A stretch of DNA of 64,000 bases from Christensenella timonensis (GTDB lineage: Bacteria > Bacillota > Clostridia > Christensenellales > Christensenellaceae). The notes under the pieces are model-generated. The model did not search any database, was not told the origin of the DNA, and was given only the letters and a program-made list of their open reading frames with translations. The stretch lies in contig NZ_FLKP01000002.1 of assembly GCF_900087015.1 (NCBI RefSeq), positions 1,054,001-1,118,000 on the forward strand. The letters run 5' to 3'. The position numbers and the translations under genes were made by a program. Positions 49,737 through 54,965 of this stretch are shown here, in pieces. Each line of letters starts with the position of its first letter. Position 1 is the stretch's first letter.

Positions 49737-51143
49737 TTATTTCTTTTTGTGGCGTGCCACCCGGGAACCGACCTTCGGGGCTTTTGGGTCGCGCGGAACG
49801 TCCGTCTTTGCAGGATCGTCTGTGGCGGCGGAAGCACGGTTCAGGTAATGCTCGGGAGCATCGGTACTGTCAGAAATATCCGCAGTGCTCTTTTTATATC
49901 CTTTGGGCTGCTGCGTATAGCGGCTGACATCCGAAAGGTCATATCCCTTGGGTTGCTGCGTATAGCGGCTGATGTCGGAAAGATCGTAACCCTCCGGCGT
50001 TTTGGGATCAGCTTCCTGCACCCGGGATCCTTCGGGCTGCTGCGTATAGCGGCTGACGTCCGAAAGGTCATAACCGCTTGGCTGCTGTGTATAGCGGCTG
50101 ATATCCGCCTGATAGCGGTCGTTGAATTCTTCCGCGCTGGTTTTGGGTGCTTCGGGCGCAGGGCCGACATGGTCTTCCGGAAGCGCAGGCTTGCTGGTGT
50201 CGCCACCCCTGCTCTTTTTCTTACGGCTCTTCATAAGGAGGATAACGATGATCACGACGGCGATGACGACTGCCGCACCGATCACATAGAATACGAAATT
50301 CGGATCGTTATAATAGGCGTTTTGGATGTTATCGCCCAGGTTCGCAAAAAACGAACCAACCGCGGCAAAGCCGGTTGGTGCAGGAGTTGGCTCCGGCGAC
50401 GGGGCGGGCGTCACAACAACAGCGGTGGTCGGCTGTGGCGTCGGCGCGGGGCTCGGCGACGGGGCAGCGGTCACTGCGGCTGCGGCGGTACTGAATTGAA
50501 GGGAATTCAACGGAACCATGGCTTGGTTCAAATAGGTATCGGCCTCGTCGTTTTGATAGAGTAGCGTCACGCTGAAACTGGTATTGTTCTGCGCGAGCAT
50601 ATAAATCCTCGTTGTGTATCCGTTGTCCTCCGCGTGGCGGCCGGTCAGCACGATCGCGGTTTTGCCGTTCAATTGCTCGGTCGTATGGGGATCAAAGACA
50701 TAGTCTGCGCCAAATTCAGCCTGCTTCTGTGCAACAAGGAAATTGACCTGGTCGTCGTTTAACATGGAGATATCCGTAACGGGGGGCATACTTTCCGCAG
50801 GTGTGTCCGAAGAGATCCCTTCCATCGCGTCGGCGCCCGCAGCTCCGGTCGAAGCAGTGAGGGCGAGCGGCGTTTCCGTAACGTCGAGGGAATAGTTGAG
50901 CGCATTATCCGTTTCCGTTGCATAAGACGCGATCAAAATCGCGAGGTTTTCGTTTTTATCCTGTATGGATGCGAGCAGCTCCGGCGACATGTTCGTCCCG
51001 CCGGGCGTGTAATAATAGGTACCGCTGCCCTCTGGTATCTCTATGCTGAAATCCCCCGCGGGGTCGCTGTAGGGAAGTGCGAACGCGCATACCGGAACCA
51101 TGATCGCAATGATGAATGCTATAACAGCAGTAATTTTTTTCAA
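49737..51143 (-). CDS. Membrane-anchored protein with RYTQQP repeats
   Basis: A 468-residue protein I do not recognise as a whole. It has a cleavable signal peptide (ends VCAFA, about 22), an extracellular domain (about 23-225) with FSIEIPEGSGTYYYTPGG and KTAIVLTGRHAEDNG, a Pro/Thr/Ala-rich stretch (about 228-265), one membrane helix (about 290-310), a basic stop-transfer (KSRKKKSRGG) and a cytoplasmic tail. The tail carries four copies of a unit DLSD(V/I)SRYTQQP(K/S/E)G(Y/S), the copies separated by 2-17 residues. Tyr/Thr/Ser-rich repeats could be docking or phosphorylation sites. Promoter at 51191-51219, terminator after the gene: a single unit. Confidence 0.75.
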   Translation of the reverse strand: MKKITAVIAFIIAIMVPVCAFALPYSDPAGDFSIEIPEGSGTYYYTPGGTNMSPELLASIQDKNENLAILIASYATETDNALNYSLDVTETPLALTASTGAAGADAMEGISSDTPAESMPPVTDISMLNDDQVNFLVAQKQAEFGADYVFDPHTTEQLNGKTAIVLTGRHAEDNGYTTRIYMLAQNNTSFSVTLLYQNDEADTYLNQAMVPLNSLQFSTAAAAVTAAPSPSPAPTPQPTTAVVVTPAPSPEPTPAPTGFAAVGSFFANLGDNIQNAYYNDPNFVFYVIGAAVVIAVVIIVILLMKSRKKKSRGGDTSKPALPEDHVGPAPEAPKTSAEEFNDRYQADISRYTQQPSGYDLSDVSRYTQQPEGSRVQEADPKTPEGYDLSDISRYTQQPKGYDLSDVSRYTQQPKGYKKSTADISDSTDAPEHYLNRASAATDDPAKTDVPRDPKAPKVGSRVARHKKK

Positions 51144-51223: not shown

Positions 51224-52633
51224 TCAGGATTTTTTTCTGCCGCGTTTTTCGTACTGCAGGAACTTATCGTCAAAATCCCTGGTCTGGGAAACGATGACGC
51301 CGGACAAGACGAGCAGGCAAATCAGGTTAGGGATCGCCATCAGCCCGTTTGCGGTGTCGGAAAAGTCCCAAACGATCTCGAGCGTTGTGATCGCGCCGAT
51401 AAAGACAACTGCGGCAAATAGCGCGCGGTAAATATATTTTGCCTTCATGGAGGGGATCAAAAACTCAAGGCTCTTTTCCCCATAATAGCTCCAGCCGAGG
51501 ATGGTGGAGAAGGCAAAGAGGATGAGGCCGATGGTTACGATACCGCTGCCCACAGGGCCCATGACGCTGTCGAAAGCGAGGATCGTGAGCGAAGCGCCTG
51601 TAACGAGGCTGCCGTCTGCTGCGAGGCTCCCAAGGACGCCGGAAGAAGCGATGGCAAGGCCGGTCAGCGTACAAACGATGATCGTGTCAAAAAACGTACC
51701 TGTCATGTTGATGTAACCCTGTCGGCACGGATGGTCGGTTTTGGCGGCTGCGGCAGCAATTGGCGCGCTGCCCAGTCCCGCTTCGTTGGAAAACACACCG
51801 CGCGCAACGCCGAAACGCAGGGCGGTCGCGAAGGTAAAGCCGGCAACGCCGCCTAAGATGGAACGCGGGGCAAATGCGCTTTGCATGATCTGTCCAAAAC
51901 CGGCGGGCAGGTGATCGAGGTTGGAAAAAATAATGATCAAACAGCCGACCGCGTAAAATATGGCCATCACGGGAACGATCTTGGAAGAAACGCTTCCAAT
52001 GGATTTGATGCCGCCCAAAAGCACGATACCCACCAATACGGCGATCACGATGCCGGTGATCCACGTGGGCACTGCAAAGGTATTGGAAACAGCCTCGGCG
52101 ATCGAATTGATCTGCGTCAGGTTTCCGATCCCAAAGGAAGCGATGACGGCAAATACTGCAAAGGCAATGGAAAGGACAGTGCCCAGCCATTTTACCTTGA
52201 AGCCGTTTTTGATGGAGAACATCGGCCCGCCGGACATTTCGCCGTTGGCATTTTTTTCGCGGTAAAATACGGCAAGTACGGATTCGCCGTATTTGGTCGC
52301 CAGGCCAAAAACCGCGGATACCCACATCCAGAAGAGGGCGCCGGGGCCGCCTAGCGTCATCGCTGTCGCTACGCCTACGATATTACCCGTGCCGATCGTC
52401 GCGGCAAGTGCGGTCATCAGGGACTGGAACGGCGAGATATCGCCGCTGTCCGTATTGTCTGCCTTGCGGATGCTGTGCTTTGAAAAAACCTGCCGGAGCG
52501 CATACCCCAAATTCCGCAGGGGGCGAAACTGCAGGCGGATCATCAGAAAGACGCCCGTCCCTACCAGCAGGGCAAGCATAACAGGCCCCCAAACAAAATC
52601 GTTGATACTCTTAAGAATCTCTGGAAATGTCAT
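51224..52633 (-). CDS. Alanine/glycine:cation symporter (AGCS family)
   Basis: A 469-residue secondary transporter with about eleven membrane segments. Family signatures GTGNIVGVATAMTLGGPGAL (about 79-98) and FSNEAGLGSAPIAAAAAKT are clear. It takes up alanine or glycine with Na+ (or H+). ATG 52633 has a G-rich ribosome site; an in-frame ATG at 52645 would overlap it. It lies divergent from the riboswitch-controlled RibU gene and upstream of the repeat-protein promoter. Confidence 0.95.
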   Translation of the reverse strand: MTFPEILKSINDFVWGPVMLALLVGTGVFLMIRLQFRPLRNLGYALRQVFSKHSIRKADNTDSGDISPFQSLMTALAATIGTGNIVGVATAMTLGGPGALFWMWVSAVFGLATKYGESVLAVFYREKNANGEMSGGPMFSIKNGFKVKWLGTVLSIAFAVFAVIASFGIGNLTQINSIAEAVSNTFAVPTWITGIVIAVLVGIVLLGGIKSIGSVSSKIVPVMAIFYAVGCLIIIFSNLDHLPAGFGQIMQSAFAPRSILGGVAGFTFATALRFGVARGVFSNEAGLGSAPIAAAAAKTDHPCRQGYINMTGTFFDTIIVCTLTGLAIASSGVLGSLAADGSLVTGASLTILAFDSVMGPVGSGIVTIGLILFAFSTILGWSYYGEKSLEFLIPSMKAKYIYRALFAAVVFIGAITTLEIVWDFSDTANGLMAIPNLICLLVLSGVIVSQTRDFDDKFLQYEKRGRKKS

Positions 52634-52715
52634 AAAAACCCCCATCCTCTGACTTGTTGCATTTCAATACCATTCATTCTATAATAAAAGGCTTTTTACT
52701 GTCAATTTTGCCGCC

Positions 52716-52744
52716 TTGACAGGTACCGGGTGATGCGGTATGAT
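52716..52744 (+). promoter_or_regulatory. Promoter of the first FMN riboswitch transcript
   Basis: TTGACA at 52716-52721, 17 bases, TATGAT at 52739-52744; transcription would begin near 52751, just at the aptamer. Confidence 0.85.
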
Positions 52745-52760
52745 AAATACAAAGTGAATG

Positions 52761-52876
52761 TAGTCTTCGGGGCAGGGCGTAAATCCCTACCGGCAGTACA
52801 GCCTGCGAACTCCTGTTATCAGGAGCCGATGCGGTGGAATTCCGCAGCCGACAGTTAAAGTCTGGATGAGAGAAGA
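52761..52876 (+). promoter_or_regulatory. FMN riboswitch (RFN element) 1
   Basis: Conserved blocks TCTTCGGGGCAGGG, ATCCCTACCGGCAGTA, GCCTGCGA, GCCGATGCGGTGGAATTCCG and GCCGACAGTTAAAGTCTGGA in order define the FMN aptamer. Binding FMN should favour the terminator at 52898-52932 and switch off the riboflavin transporter gene. Confidence 0.96.
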
Positions 52877-52897
52877 AAAATATTGTTTTTCAATATG

Positions 52898-52932
52898 ATT
52901 TCCGGGGATGCTTGCATTCGCGGAAATTTTTT
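52898..52932 (+). terminator. Riboswitch-controlled terminator 1
   Basis: ATTTCCGGGGATGC pairs with GCATTCGCGGAAAT and runs into TTTTTT, directly before the GGAGG of ribU. An ATATTG/CAATAT hairpin at 52880-52896 lies between aptamer and terminator and may be part of the switching structure. Confidence 0.85.
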
Positions 52933-52947
52933 ATTGGAGGCCTTATC

Positions 52948-53571
52948 ATGGAAACACTTGCACAAAACGCAACACTAAAGAGGAAAATCACGAAAACGCA
53001 GTACATCACACGCGTAGCGATTTTGGCTGCGGTCGCATTCGTACTGATGTATGTAGAACTGCCGCTGCCCATCATCCCGCCGTGGCTGAAGCTGGATTTC
53101 TCGGAAATACCGGTGCTCCTGGGGGCGTTTGCCTTGGGGCCTGTTGCAGGGATCATTATCCAGGGCATCAAATGCCTGCTGTTTTTATTGATCCGCGGCA
53201 GCATGTCGGGCGGCGTGGGTGAGCTGGCAAACTTTTTGATCGGCGTGGCGTTTGTGGTCATCGCGGCATTCATTTACAAGAAAAAGCATAATTTTAAGTT
53301 TGCGATTATCGGTACCCTGATTGGTATCTTGGTGGCCGCAGTAGTAGCGGGTATCCTCAATTATTATGTACTGATTCCATTTTATGCCAATACCGGACTC
53401 ATGCCCATGGATGCGATCATCGCGGCATGTAAGGCGATCAATCCGGCGGCGGATTCGCTTCTTGGCTATGTATTGATCTTTGCGATGCCGTTCACGGCCT
53501 TCAAGCTCGCGGTCGACGCAGTGGTCGTTTTCCTGCTCTACAAGAAATTGGCGCGCTTCCTGCATAATTAG
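52948..53571 (+). CDS. ribU: ECF transporter S-component, riboflavin (RibU-like)
   Basis: A 207-residue membrane protein with six hydrophobic segments. YVELPLPIIPPWLKLDFSEI (about 33-52) carries the L1-loop pattern of RibU, which binds riboflavin; FALGPVAGIIIQGIKCLLF follows. It works with a shared energising module (EcfA/A'/T) not in this window. ATG 52948 with TTGGAGG eight bases upstream is the start; longer in-frame reading runs back into the terminator. The FMN riboswitch in front supports riboflavin as substrate. Confidence 0.93.
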   Translation: METLAQNATLKRKITKTQYITRVAILAAVAFVLMYVELPLPIIPPWLKLDFSEIPVLLGAFALGPVAGIIIQGIKCLLFLLIRGSMSGGVGELANFLIGVAFVVIAAFIYKKKHNFKFAIIGTLIGILVAAVVAGILNYYVLIPFYANTGLMPMDAIIAACKAINPAADSLLGYVLIFAMPFTAFKLAVDAVVVFLLYKKLARFLHN

Positions 53572-53641
53572 TATTTTTGATCGTATAGGGAAAGTAAAGT
53601 ATTCCGGCGTGGATGCTTGATAGATCATTTTTTAAAAGTGA

Positions 53642-53758
53642 ATGTAATCTTCGGGGCAGGGTGTAAATCCCTACCGGCAGTACAGCCTGCGAACTCCTGT
53701 TATCGGGAGCCGATGCGGTGGAATTCCGCAGCCGACAGTTAAAGTCTGGATGAAAGAA
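53642..53758 (+). promoter_or_regulatory. FMN riboswitch (RFN element) 2
   Basis: All conserved FMN-aptamer blocks are present as in copy 1. No good promoter is visible just upstream (TTGATC at 53578 with a poor TATTCC -10), so it may act on read-through from the first gene or on its own weak promoter. Confidence 0.95.
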
Positions 53759-53777
53759 GAATATTGTTTTCAATATG

Positions 53778-53812
53778 ATTTCCGGGGATGCTTACATTCG
53801 CGGAAATTTTTT
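53778..53812 (+). terminator. Riboswitch-controlled terminator 2
   Basis: ATTTCCGGGGATGC/ACATTCGCGGAAAT stem followed by TTTTTT, eight bases before the coding ribosome site. Confidence 0.85.
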
Positions 53813-53830
53813 ATTGGAGGTACTTATTTT

Positions 53831-54433
53831 ATGAAAACACTGGAAAACAAAAACAAACCTAAACTCACGACACGGAATATAACGTCGATCGCTGTCATGG
53901 CGGCGCTTTCGATCGTGCTGGTGTATCTGATCCGGATACCGATGTTCCTGCCGTTCCTCGAATACGATCCGGCAGATATACCGATTTTTATTACGACCTT
54001 CGCCTTTGGCCCGGGTATCGGCTTTATGCTTACAGTGGTCGTATCGGTTTTGCAGGGAGTCACTGTGAGCGCGTCCTCGGGCATGATTGGAATTGCGATG
54101 CATATCCTCGCAACCGGCTCGTTTGTACTGGTAGCCGGTAACATCTATAAACGAAATAAAACGAGGAAAAACGCTGTTGCGGCATTGGTAGCGGGCGTAG
54201 GAGCCTGGACGGCGATGATGGTGCTTTGGAATATCATTATGACGCCGCTTTTCATGGGCGTTCCGCGGGAGCAGGTATTGCTGTTGATCGTGCCGGCGAT
54301 CCTGCCCTTTAACCTGATCAAGGCGGGGATCAACGCTACGGTGACATTTGCGCTGTATAAATCGGTCGGAAGATTGTTCCGTATGCCCGGGGCGCAGGCA
54401 GCCGGGAAGAAACAGTGCATACATGGGGAATAA
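53831..54433 (+). CDS. ECF transporter S-component, second RibU-like protein
   Basis: A 200-residue S-component with five or six membrane segments. PMFLPFLEYDPADIPIFITT (about 36-55) and FAFGPGIGFMLTVVVSVLQG parallel the RibU pattern but differ at most positions from the first copy. The FMN riboswitch suggests a flavin or flavin precursor; a related substrate such as roseoflavin-like or lumichrome-like compounds cannot be excluded. ATG 53831 has TTGGAGG upstream. Tandem with ribU, likely an old duplication whose coding parts have diverged. Confidence 0.9.
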   Translation: MKTLENKNKPKLTTRNITSIAVMAALSIVLVYLIRIPMFLPFLEYDPADIPIFITTFAFGPGIGFMLTVVVSVLQGVTVSASSGMIGIAMHILATGSFVLVAGNIYKRNKTRKNAVAALVAGVGAWTAMMVLWNIIMTPLFMGVPREQVLLLIVPAILPFNLIKAGINATVTFALYKSVGRLFRMPGAQAAGKKQCIHGE

Positions 54434-54539
54434 CTGCTTCGGTACAAAGAAAACGTTGCGCTTCTTGCATAATTCGCGTTTTTACTATATTATATAACAT
54501 AAGTATTTTGATATATAATATGAGGAATGAAACGCGTTC

Positions 54540-54965
54540 ATGCAGGAGTTCTTAAGCGATAACGAACAAATGACAAAAGATTTTGCAAAAAAGCTGGCTT
54601 CCCGTTTGGTAAAAGGCAGCTTTCTTGCCGTTTATGGAGATTTGGGCGCGGGCAAAACAGCCTTTGTGAAGGGACTGGCGGAAGGGCTCCATGTAACGGA
54701 GACGGTCGTGAGCCCGACCTTTACCATCCTGCGCGCATATGAGAGCGGGCGCATGCCGCTGTACCACTTTGACGTGTATCGCATTGCGGACGAGGACGAG
54801 CTGTTTGAGATCGGCTTTGACGAATACGTGGCAGGTGACGGCGTGTGCGTGTGCGAATGGGCAGACCTGATCCCCGGCGCGCTGCCACAAAAGAGGCTGG
54901 ATATCAAAATAGAGCGCATGGGAGACACGCGGCGCAAGATCACGCTTGAAGAGGTGGATGCATGA
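54540..54965 (+). CDS. tsaE: tRNA t6A biosynthesis ATPase TsaE
   Basis: A 141-residue P-loop protein; VYGDLGAGKTAFVKGLAEGL holds the Walker A, SPTFTILRAYESG and YHFDVYRIADEDELFEIGFD are family blocks. TsaE drives the TsaB-TsaC-TsaD complex that makes threonylcarbamoyladenosine on ANN-decoding tRNAs. It overlaps tsaB by four bases. The ribosome site is weak: GAGGA lies 14-18 bases upstream and is closer to a short overlapping frame starting at 54527. Confidence 0.95.
   Translation: MQEFLSDNEQMTKDFAKKLASRLVKGSFLAVYGDLGAGKTAFVKGLAEGLHVTETVVSPTFTILRAYESGRMPLYHFDVYRIADEDELFEIGFDEYVAGDGVCVCEWADLIPGALPQKRLDIKIERMGDTRRKITLEEVDA

Follow-up and report, generated by a model that had tools for sequence, protein, structure and literature searches.

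Why should two almost identical FMN riboswitch leaders stand in series in front of two strongly diverged riboflavin-transporter genes? The question is raised by a locus of the gut bacterium Christensenella timonensis, whose genome (2,650,850 bases in 2 contigs; G000 below) contains the 64,000-nucleotide stretch analysed here, referred to as the window. We compared this genome with those of five congeners (G001–G005) and of two members of one other genus in the same family (G009 and G012, 91% and 72% complete, respectively).

Two FMN leaders and the genes behind them

The features needed below are, in window coordinates:

51224..52645, minus strand: sodium:alanine symporter-like gene, the left synteny marker (82–88% identity in five of five congeners)
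52716..52744, plus strand: sigma-70-type promoter before leader 1 (TTGACA-17-TATGAT, an 11/12 match to consensus)
52751..52947, plus strand: leader 1, with FMN aptamer, antiterminator/terminator and ribosome site; left copy of a direct repeat
52759..52881, plus strand: FMN riboswitch aptamer 1, RF00050 (cmscan 107.9 bits, E 3.8e-24)
52948..53571, plus strand: RibU1, an ECF S-component of the S. aureus RibU type (protein searches and tree); the probable inserted gene
53572..53634, plus strand: spacer separating RibU1 from leader 2 (promoter-like sites match at most 7/12)
53635..53830, plus strand: leader 2, right copy of the direct repeat (cmscan, alignment and folding)
53643..53765, plus strand: FMN riboswitch aptamer 2, RF00050 (cmscan 112.5 bits, E 2.1e-25)
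53831..54433, plus strand: RibU2, a riboflavin ECF S-component of the T. maritima RibU type and the gene resident in the genus
54540..54965, plus strand: tsaE-like gene, the right synteny marker (in five of five congeners, and also downstream of RibU1 in G012)

The names sodium:alanine symporter and tsaE are presumptive assignments of our own. Strong promoter-like sites stand back to back in this region, one at 52676–52705 (minus strand) for the symporter and that at 52716–52744 (plus strand) for leader 1. Further to the left is a gene at 49737–51143 (minus strand), whose 468-residue product begins with a signal-like segment, contains a single membrane-like stretch and carries C-terminal repeats recognised by eye (DISRYTQQP.., DVSRYTQQP..); it has matches near the leader in all five congeners and in G009.

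Both aptamers score far above the RF00050 gathering cut-off of 66.2 bits, and they are the only FMN aptamers that cmscan detects in the whole genome. The two leaders start 884 bases apart, which defines the repeat unit, and are as alike as the initial annotation of this DNA had claimed: up to the GGAGG, pairwise alignment separates them by five substitutions plus indels of 3 nt and 1 nt, and local similarity pairs 52751–52958 with 53635–53841, thus reaching about 11 bases into both genes. In MAFFT alignments, on which the identities below are based, the placement of the 3-nt indel makes alignment columns 130, 132 and 134 resemble substitutions, and 8 differences are counted over 186 columns (95.7% identity). 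The annotation had also spoken of a single helix change that preserves pairing, which is broadly right for column 73 (A to G, turning U-A into U-G), but two more substitutions touch a predicted helix. Those at columns 15 and 167 fall in the predicted antiterminator, where G-U pairs become A-U in leader 2 and standard pairing is kept.

The proteins behind these leaders are indeed strongly diverged, being identical at 60 of 185 aligned residues. The Pfam family PF12822 (ECF_trnsprt) exceeds its cut-off in both; PF07155 (riboflavin S component) does so in RibU2, with no match listed for RibU1, and none of the NCBIfam models reaches its cut-off for either protein. The best solved relative is 3p5n for RibU1 (E 9.5e-32) and 5kc0 for RibU2 (E 8.8e-27); we take 3p5n to be S. 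aureus RibU, and 5kc0 and 5kbw to be T. maritima RibU. (RibU1 queries mostly began at codon 2, covering 52951–53571 behind the start codon at 52948, and the Pfam and NCBIfam searches used the whole protein.) In a midpoint-rooted tree of 102 proteins from loci L033–L061, L063–L091, L105–L124 and L141–L162, RibU2 falls inside a 27-member clade (support 0.999) and RibU1 outside it, paired at 0.999 with the RibU1 of G012. This tree leaves out hits that cover fewer than 140 residues, that include stops or that lie wholly inside another hit, the RibU2 fragment of G012 among them; some of its type labels are artefactual (RibU2 of G002 is tagged R1), and several loci, including that of G005, occur in it twice. 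Judged from these comparisons, RibU1 and RibU2 are not local duplicates of each other, and riboflavin is presumably the substrate of both.

In a draw of 396 genomes of the order, the nearest relative of RibU1 is that of G012 (74% identity), the next by score having 53%. We also considered a foreign base composition for RibU1 and rejected it, as its G+C percentages (50.7 overall, 64.3 at third positions) are close to those of RibU2 (51.6 and 63.7).

The tandem arrangement is uncommon, as had been proposed. Across 61 genomes, two FMN aptamers lie less than 10 kb apart only here, in a count made with stricter filters and from which contig breaks may conceal pairs, and eight other genomes carry two or three FMN aptamers at separate places. 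Within the same 61 genomes, the two RibU types lie side by side elsewhere only in G012.

The predicted switch

Folding predicts, in both leaders, a terminator with a U run and an antiterminator that uses the P1 strand, so that the expression platform of each is coupled to P1. The terminator segment has a predicted energy of −19.4 kcal/mol in both leaders, a value reached by 2 and 0 of 200 shuffles, respectively. Before the 3′ arm of the terminator has been made, the fold with the antiterminator core enforced equals the free minimum in seven of seven leaders; for whole leaders without ligand, the antiterminator state lies 0.5–5.5 kcal/mol below the terminator state (2.1 for leader 1 and 2.6 for leader 2). 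The 15 antiterminator pairs are formed in 97.0% of alignment cells, as against 32–70% for slid controls, and two pairs change on both sides; these scores come from the same sequences whose folding proposed the structure, and the covariation is modest. Of 500 shuffles, 112 match the antiterminator in cells paired, 33 in covariation score and 172 in the number of pair types, and the pair of columns 12–168 is broken in three of the seven leaders.

In the switch that these predictions suggest, FMN binding would hold the leader 5′ end and the P1 strand paired in P1, the terminator would form and the gene would be OFF. With no FMN, the 5′ end and the P1 strand would instead pair with the 5′ arm and loop of the terminator, giving the antiterminator and the ON state. 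The use of the same strands in two predicted structures would explain why both segments are invariant.

The locus in the congeners

Each of the five congeners has one FMN aptamer, versus two here, and all share the gene order symporter (minus strand), promoter, leader, RibU2, tsaE, tsaB and rimI, with RibU2 74–82% identical. RibU1 was found in none of the five, where the RibU1 query matched RibU2 only, and likewise not in G009, which is 91% complete and belongs to the same genus as G012.

The flanks of the two leaders divide the ancestral locus between them. The region upstream of leader 1 aligns with the promoter region of G002, the closest of the congeners, at a score of 97 (shuffle maximum 37), and in the other congeners 0, 18, 1 and 2 of 1000 shuffles score as high (G005, G001, G003 and G004); orthology upstream of leader 1 is thus clear for G002 only, and weak for the other four. 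Downstream of leader 1, the score against the start of RibU2 is 22 in G002 (459 of 1000 shuffles as high), and 274 of 1000 shuffles do as well in G005. The reverse holds for leader 2, downstream of which the match to the RibU2 start scores 80 in G002 (shuffle maximum 40) and 34 in G005 (maximum 30), while the region upstream scores 20 against G002, equalled by 339 of 1000 shuffles. By eye, a likeness of this upstream region to the pre-leader regions of the congeners had seemed plausible; it was rejected, being matched by 339, 329, 658, 999 and 619 of 1000 shuffles for G002, G005, G001, G003 and G004.

We consider it quite probable, from this distribution of orthologous sequence, that RibU1 arrived in an insertion that divided an ancestral leader–RibU2 locus and left the leader as a direct repeat. 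The ancestor of the genus would have had a single riboflavin-uptake locus consisting of promoter, FMN leader and RibU2. Insertion at the leader, with a repeat unit of 884 bases, would have brought in the anciently diverged RibU1 and left it flanked by two leader copies; leader 1 and RibU1 would now be served by the ancestral promoter, and RibU2 would retain its own start region behind leader 2. RibU1 itself was presumably acquired horizontally, and recombination within the leader is the likely route of its insertion.

The repeat could also have arisen by tandem duplication of leader and RibU2, with the first RibU2 later replaced by RibU1. The similarity that extends some 11 bases into the coding sequences would fit such a history, in which RibU1 would have been joined to the beginning of a RibU2. 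This history requires two events, though; a RibU2 query matches nothing between the leaders except RibU1 itself, and the region before leader 2 is unlike the congener pre-leader region and, taken alone, unlike the region after RibU2. We regard duplication followed by replacement as unlikely.

Why the leaders are so alike

The initial annotation offered two explanations for the likeness of the leaders, gene conversion or extreme selection. Strong selection is borne out by the congeners, where leaders of different species are 83.6–95.7% identical and some pairs are as similar as the two copies here: the leaders of G003 and G004 are 95.7% identical although 42.9% of 98 fourfold sites in ribU2 differ, and those of G001 and G003 are 95.6% identical with 60.8% of 97 such sites different. 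As a choice of two the proposal is incomplete, since it omits the explanation that the comparison supports, a leader copied at insertion. On these comparisons the similarity of leader 1 and leader 2 is inside the normal slow divergence of FMN leader RNA, and their likeness would stem from the copying of a single leader whose RNA class evolves very slowly.

Under conversion, an old tandem pair would have had its leaders repeatedly homogenised within the genome, and the annotation held that identity higher within than between genomes would reveal this. Run on the congeners, the comparison does give a higher value within the genome (95.7%, against 86.0–91.4% between either leader and those of the five congeners). 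The same is expected from a duplication after the split: with a single leader in all five congeners, such a duplication predicts the same identities and conversion is unneeded. Conversion must also contend with constraint that by itself yields equal identity between species, and with the absence of detected RibU1 from the congeners and G009.

That the copies are younger than the split from G002 is based on their higher identity and on few shared states. G002 has the leader 1 state at columns 15, 30 and 122 and shares with leader 1 the longer variant of the 3-nt indel; it has the leader 2 state at column 73, where its helix sequence differs, and at the 1-nt indel, and at column 167 it agrees with neither. 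In the leader tree, which ignores gaps, leader 2 is grouped with G002 at 38% bootstrap, and leaders 1 and 2 are not recovered as sisters. Our search turned up no other genome in which this locus has both leaders intact, and no second strain of the species.

A second instance in another genus

In G012 the order is RibU2, RibU1 (73–74% identical to RibU1 here) and tsaE, so that the two RibU genes stand in the opposite order to that of C. timonensis. The 309-base stretch between them (L098:10064-10372, minus strand) holds a decayed copy of the genome's own FMN leader: against the intact leader of G012 it scores 82 (none of 1000 shuffles as high, the best reaching 35), versus 57 against that of G009 and 48 against leader 1. 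As the intact leader is found on a different contig, at its end, its join to RibU2 is presumptive. That the decayed copy is closest, among the three compared, to the intact leader of its own genome is what conversion would give; against conversion, it has decayed beyond cmscan detection at E 10 and so was not being repaired, and the order of the RibU genes is reversed. Taking both genera together, we judge gene conversion to be quite improbable.

Either RibU1 reached this locus twice, each arrival accompanied by a duplicate of the leader already there, or an ancestral tandem was lost often. In the latter case both RibU genes would have stood in tandem in an ancestor shared with the genus of G012, with RibU1 mostly lost since and the order rearranged in C. 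timonensis. The sister relationship of the two RibU1 proteins (at the 0.999 support given above) and their presence at the same locus speak for such vertical inheritance, and protein identities between G000 and G012 leave room for it with several losses, since RibU1 lies within the range of its neighbours (tsaB 52%, tsaE 58%, RibU2 65% over 137 residues, rimI 72% and icd 85%). A possible trace of a RibU1–tsaE junction is also present, in that the end of RibU1 plus the spacer (53553–53603) resembles the stretch before tsaE (54458–54507), with 3 of 2000 shuffles as high; the corresponding figures are 8 of 2000 for the pre-tsaE stretch of G002 and 0.09–0.37 for G001, G003, G004 and G005. Taken alone, the spacer resembles the stretch after RibU1 in G012 (12 of 2000 shuffles as high), whereas the fraction of shuffles is 0.06 for the pre-tsaE stretch of G002 and 0.34 for that of G000 itself, and the tail codons of RibU1 may match by chance or convergence; with 28 comparisons overall, these similarities are a weak lead. 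As vertical inheritance further demands that RibU1 was lost from five congeners, from G009 and probably elsewhere in the family, and that gene order was swapped, we think it somewhat unlikely, and insertion of RibU1 at the resident leader remains our preferred reading.

Probable serial gating of RibU2

The annotation had described the two transporters as separately switched, which now appears doubtful. In all five congeners a promoter-like site matching 11–12 of 12 positions, with the same spacing, precedes the leader by 6–10 bases; before leader 2 the best such site matches 7 of 12, although a non-consensus promoter is possible there. A simple scan found no terminator-like site between RibU1 and leader 2, and the same scan missed both leader terminators. 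With no recognisable promoter at leader 2, transcription of RibU2 most likely depends on read-through past two FMN terminators in series. RibU2 would thus probably be gated twice, and be reached only via leader 1 and RibU1.

Known systems and significance

Taken singly, the parts of this locus are ordinary. The aptamers are like the standard FMN riboswitch (RFN element, RF00050, with antitermination platform) in every respect and the predicted platforms are alike too, the departure being that two copies stand in series with a gene between; both genes are ECF S-components with RibU (3p5n; 5kbw, 5kc0) as best solved relative, the departure here being that both RibU types adjoin. Their arrangement is unusual. 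According to Morales and Merino (2025, PMC12452182), riboflavin-synthesis genes of Bacillota can be preceded by two or even three FMN riboswitches, and tandems that bind the same ligand are expected to give a pseudo-cooperative output. Our locus resembles those tandems in having two riboswitches, each with its own terminator, that are predicted to act in series. It differs from them in that they share one regulatory region while RibU1 (52948–53571; 624 bases with the stop) separates the riboswitches here, so that only the second gene would see both. In C. difficile, one FMN riboswitch is reported to precede ribU, one the rib operon and a variant an efflux gene (PMC11477304). In a limited literature search we met no description of copied leaders in series with a different RibU type behind each, and nothing on conversion or copying of riboswitch leaders.

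The genus probably depends on riboflavin uptake. Lumazine synthase was found in 0 of its 6 genomes (control 14 of 14), and EcfT (CbiQ family, PF02361) in 6 of 6, with two matches in this genome; judged by lumazine synthase, the members are probable riboflavin auxotrophs, and with the EcfT family present in all, uptake is probably essential.

The probable event itself, a second RibU gained at a riboswitch with copying of the leader and strong constraint, is mostly ordinary. It nonetheless offers a route to near-identical riboswitches before very different genes without conversion: a leader copied at insertion, its likeness then preserved by constraint. The significance would be higher if either serial gating or leader-anchored recombination proved true. 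For the latter, one might speculate, though we think it rather unlikely, that the FMN leader is a recombination anchor through which riboflavin auxotrophs take up alternative RibU genes, with C. timonensis and G012 as independent instances; a leader–RibU cassette would recombine with the resident leader, FMN would control the newcomer from the outset, and two FMN terminators in series would now precede the old gene. As for serial gating, if leader 2 truly lacks a promoter, the locus would be a natural case of two riboswitches for one ligand acting in series across an intervening gene, and a single promoter would give two outputs of differing steepness.
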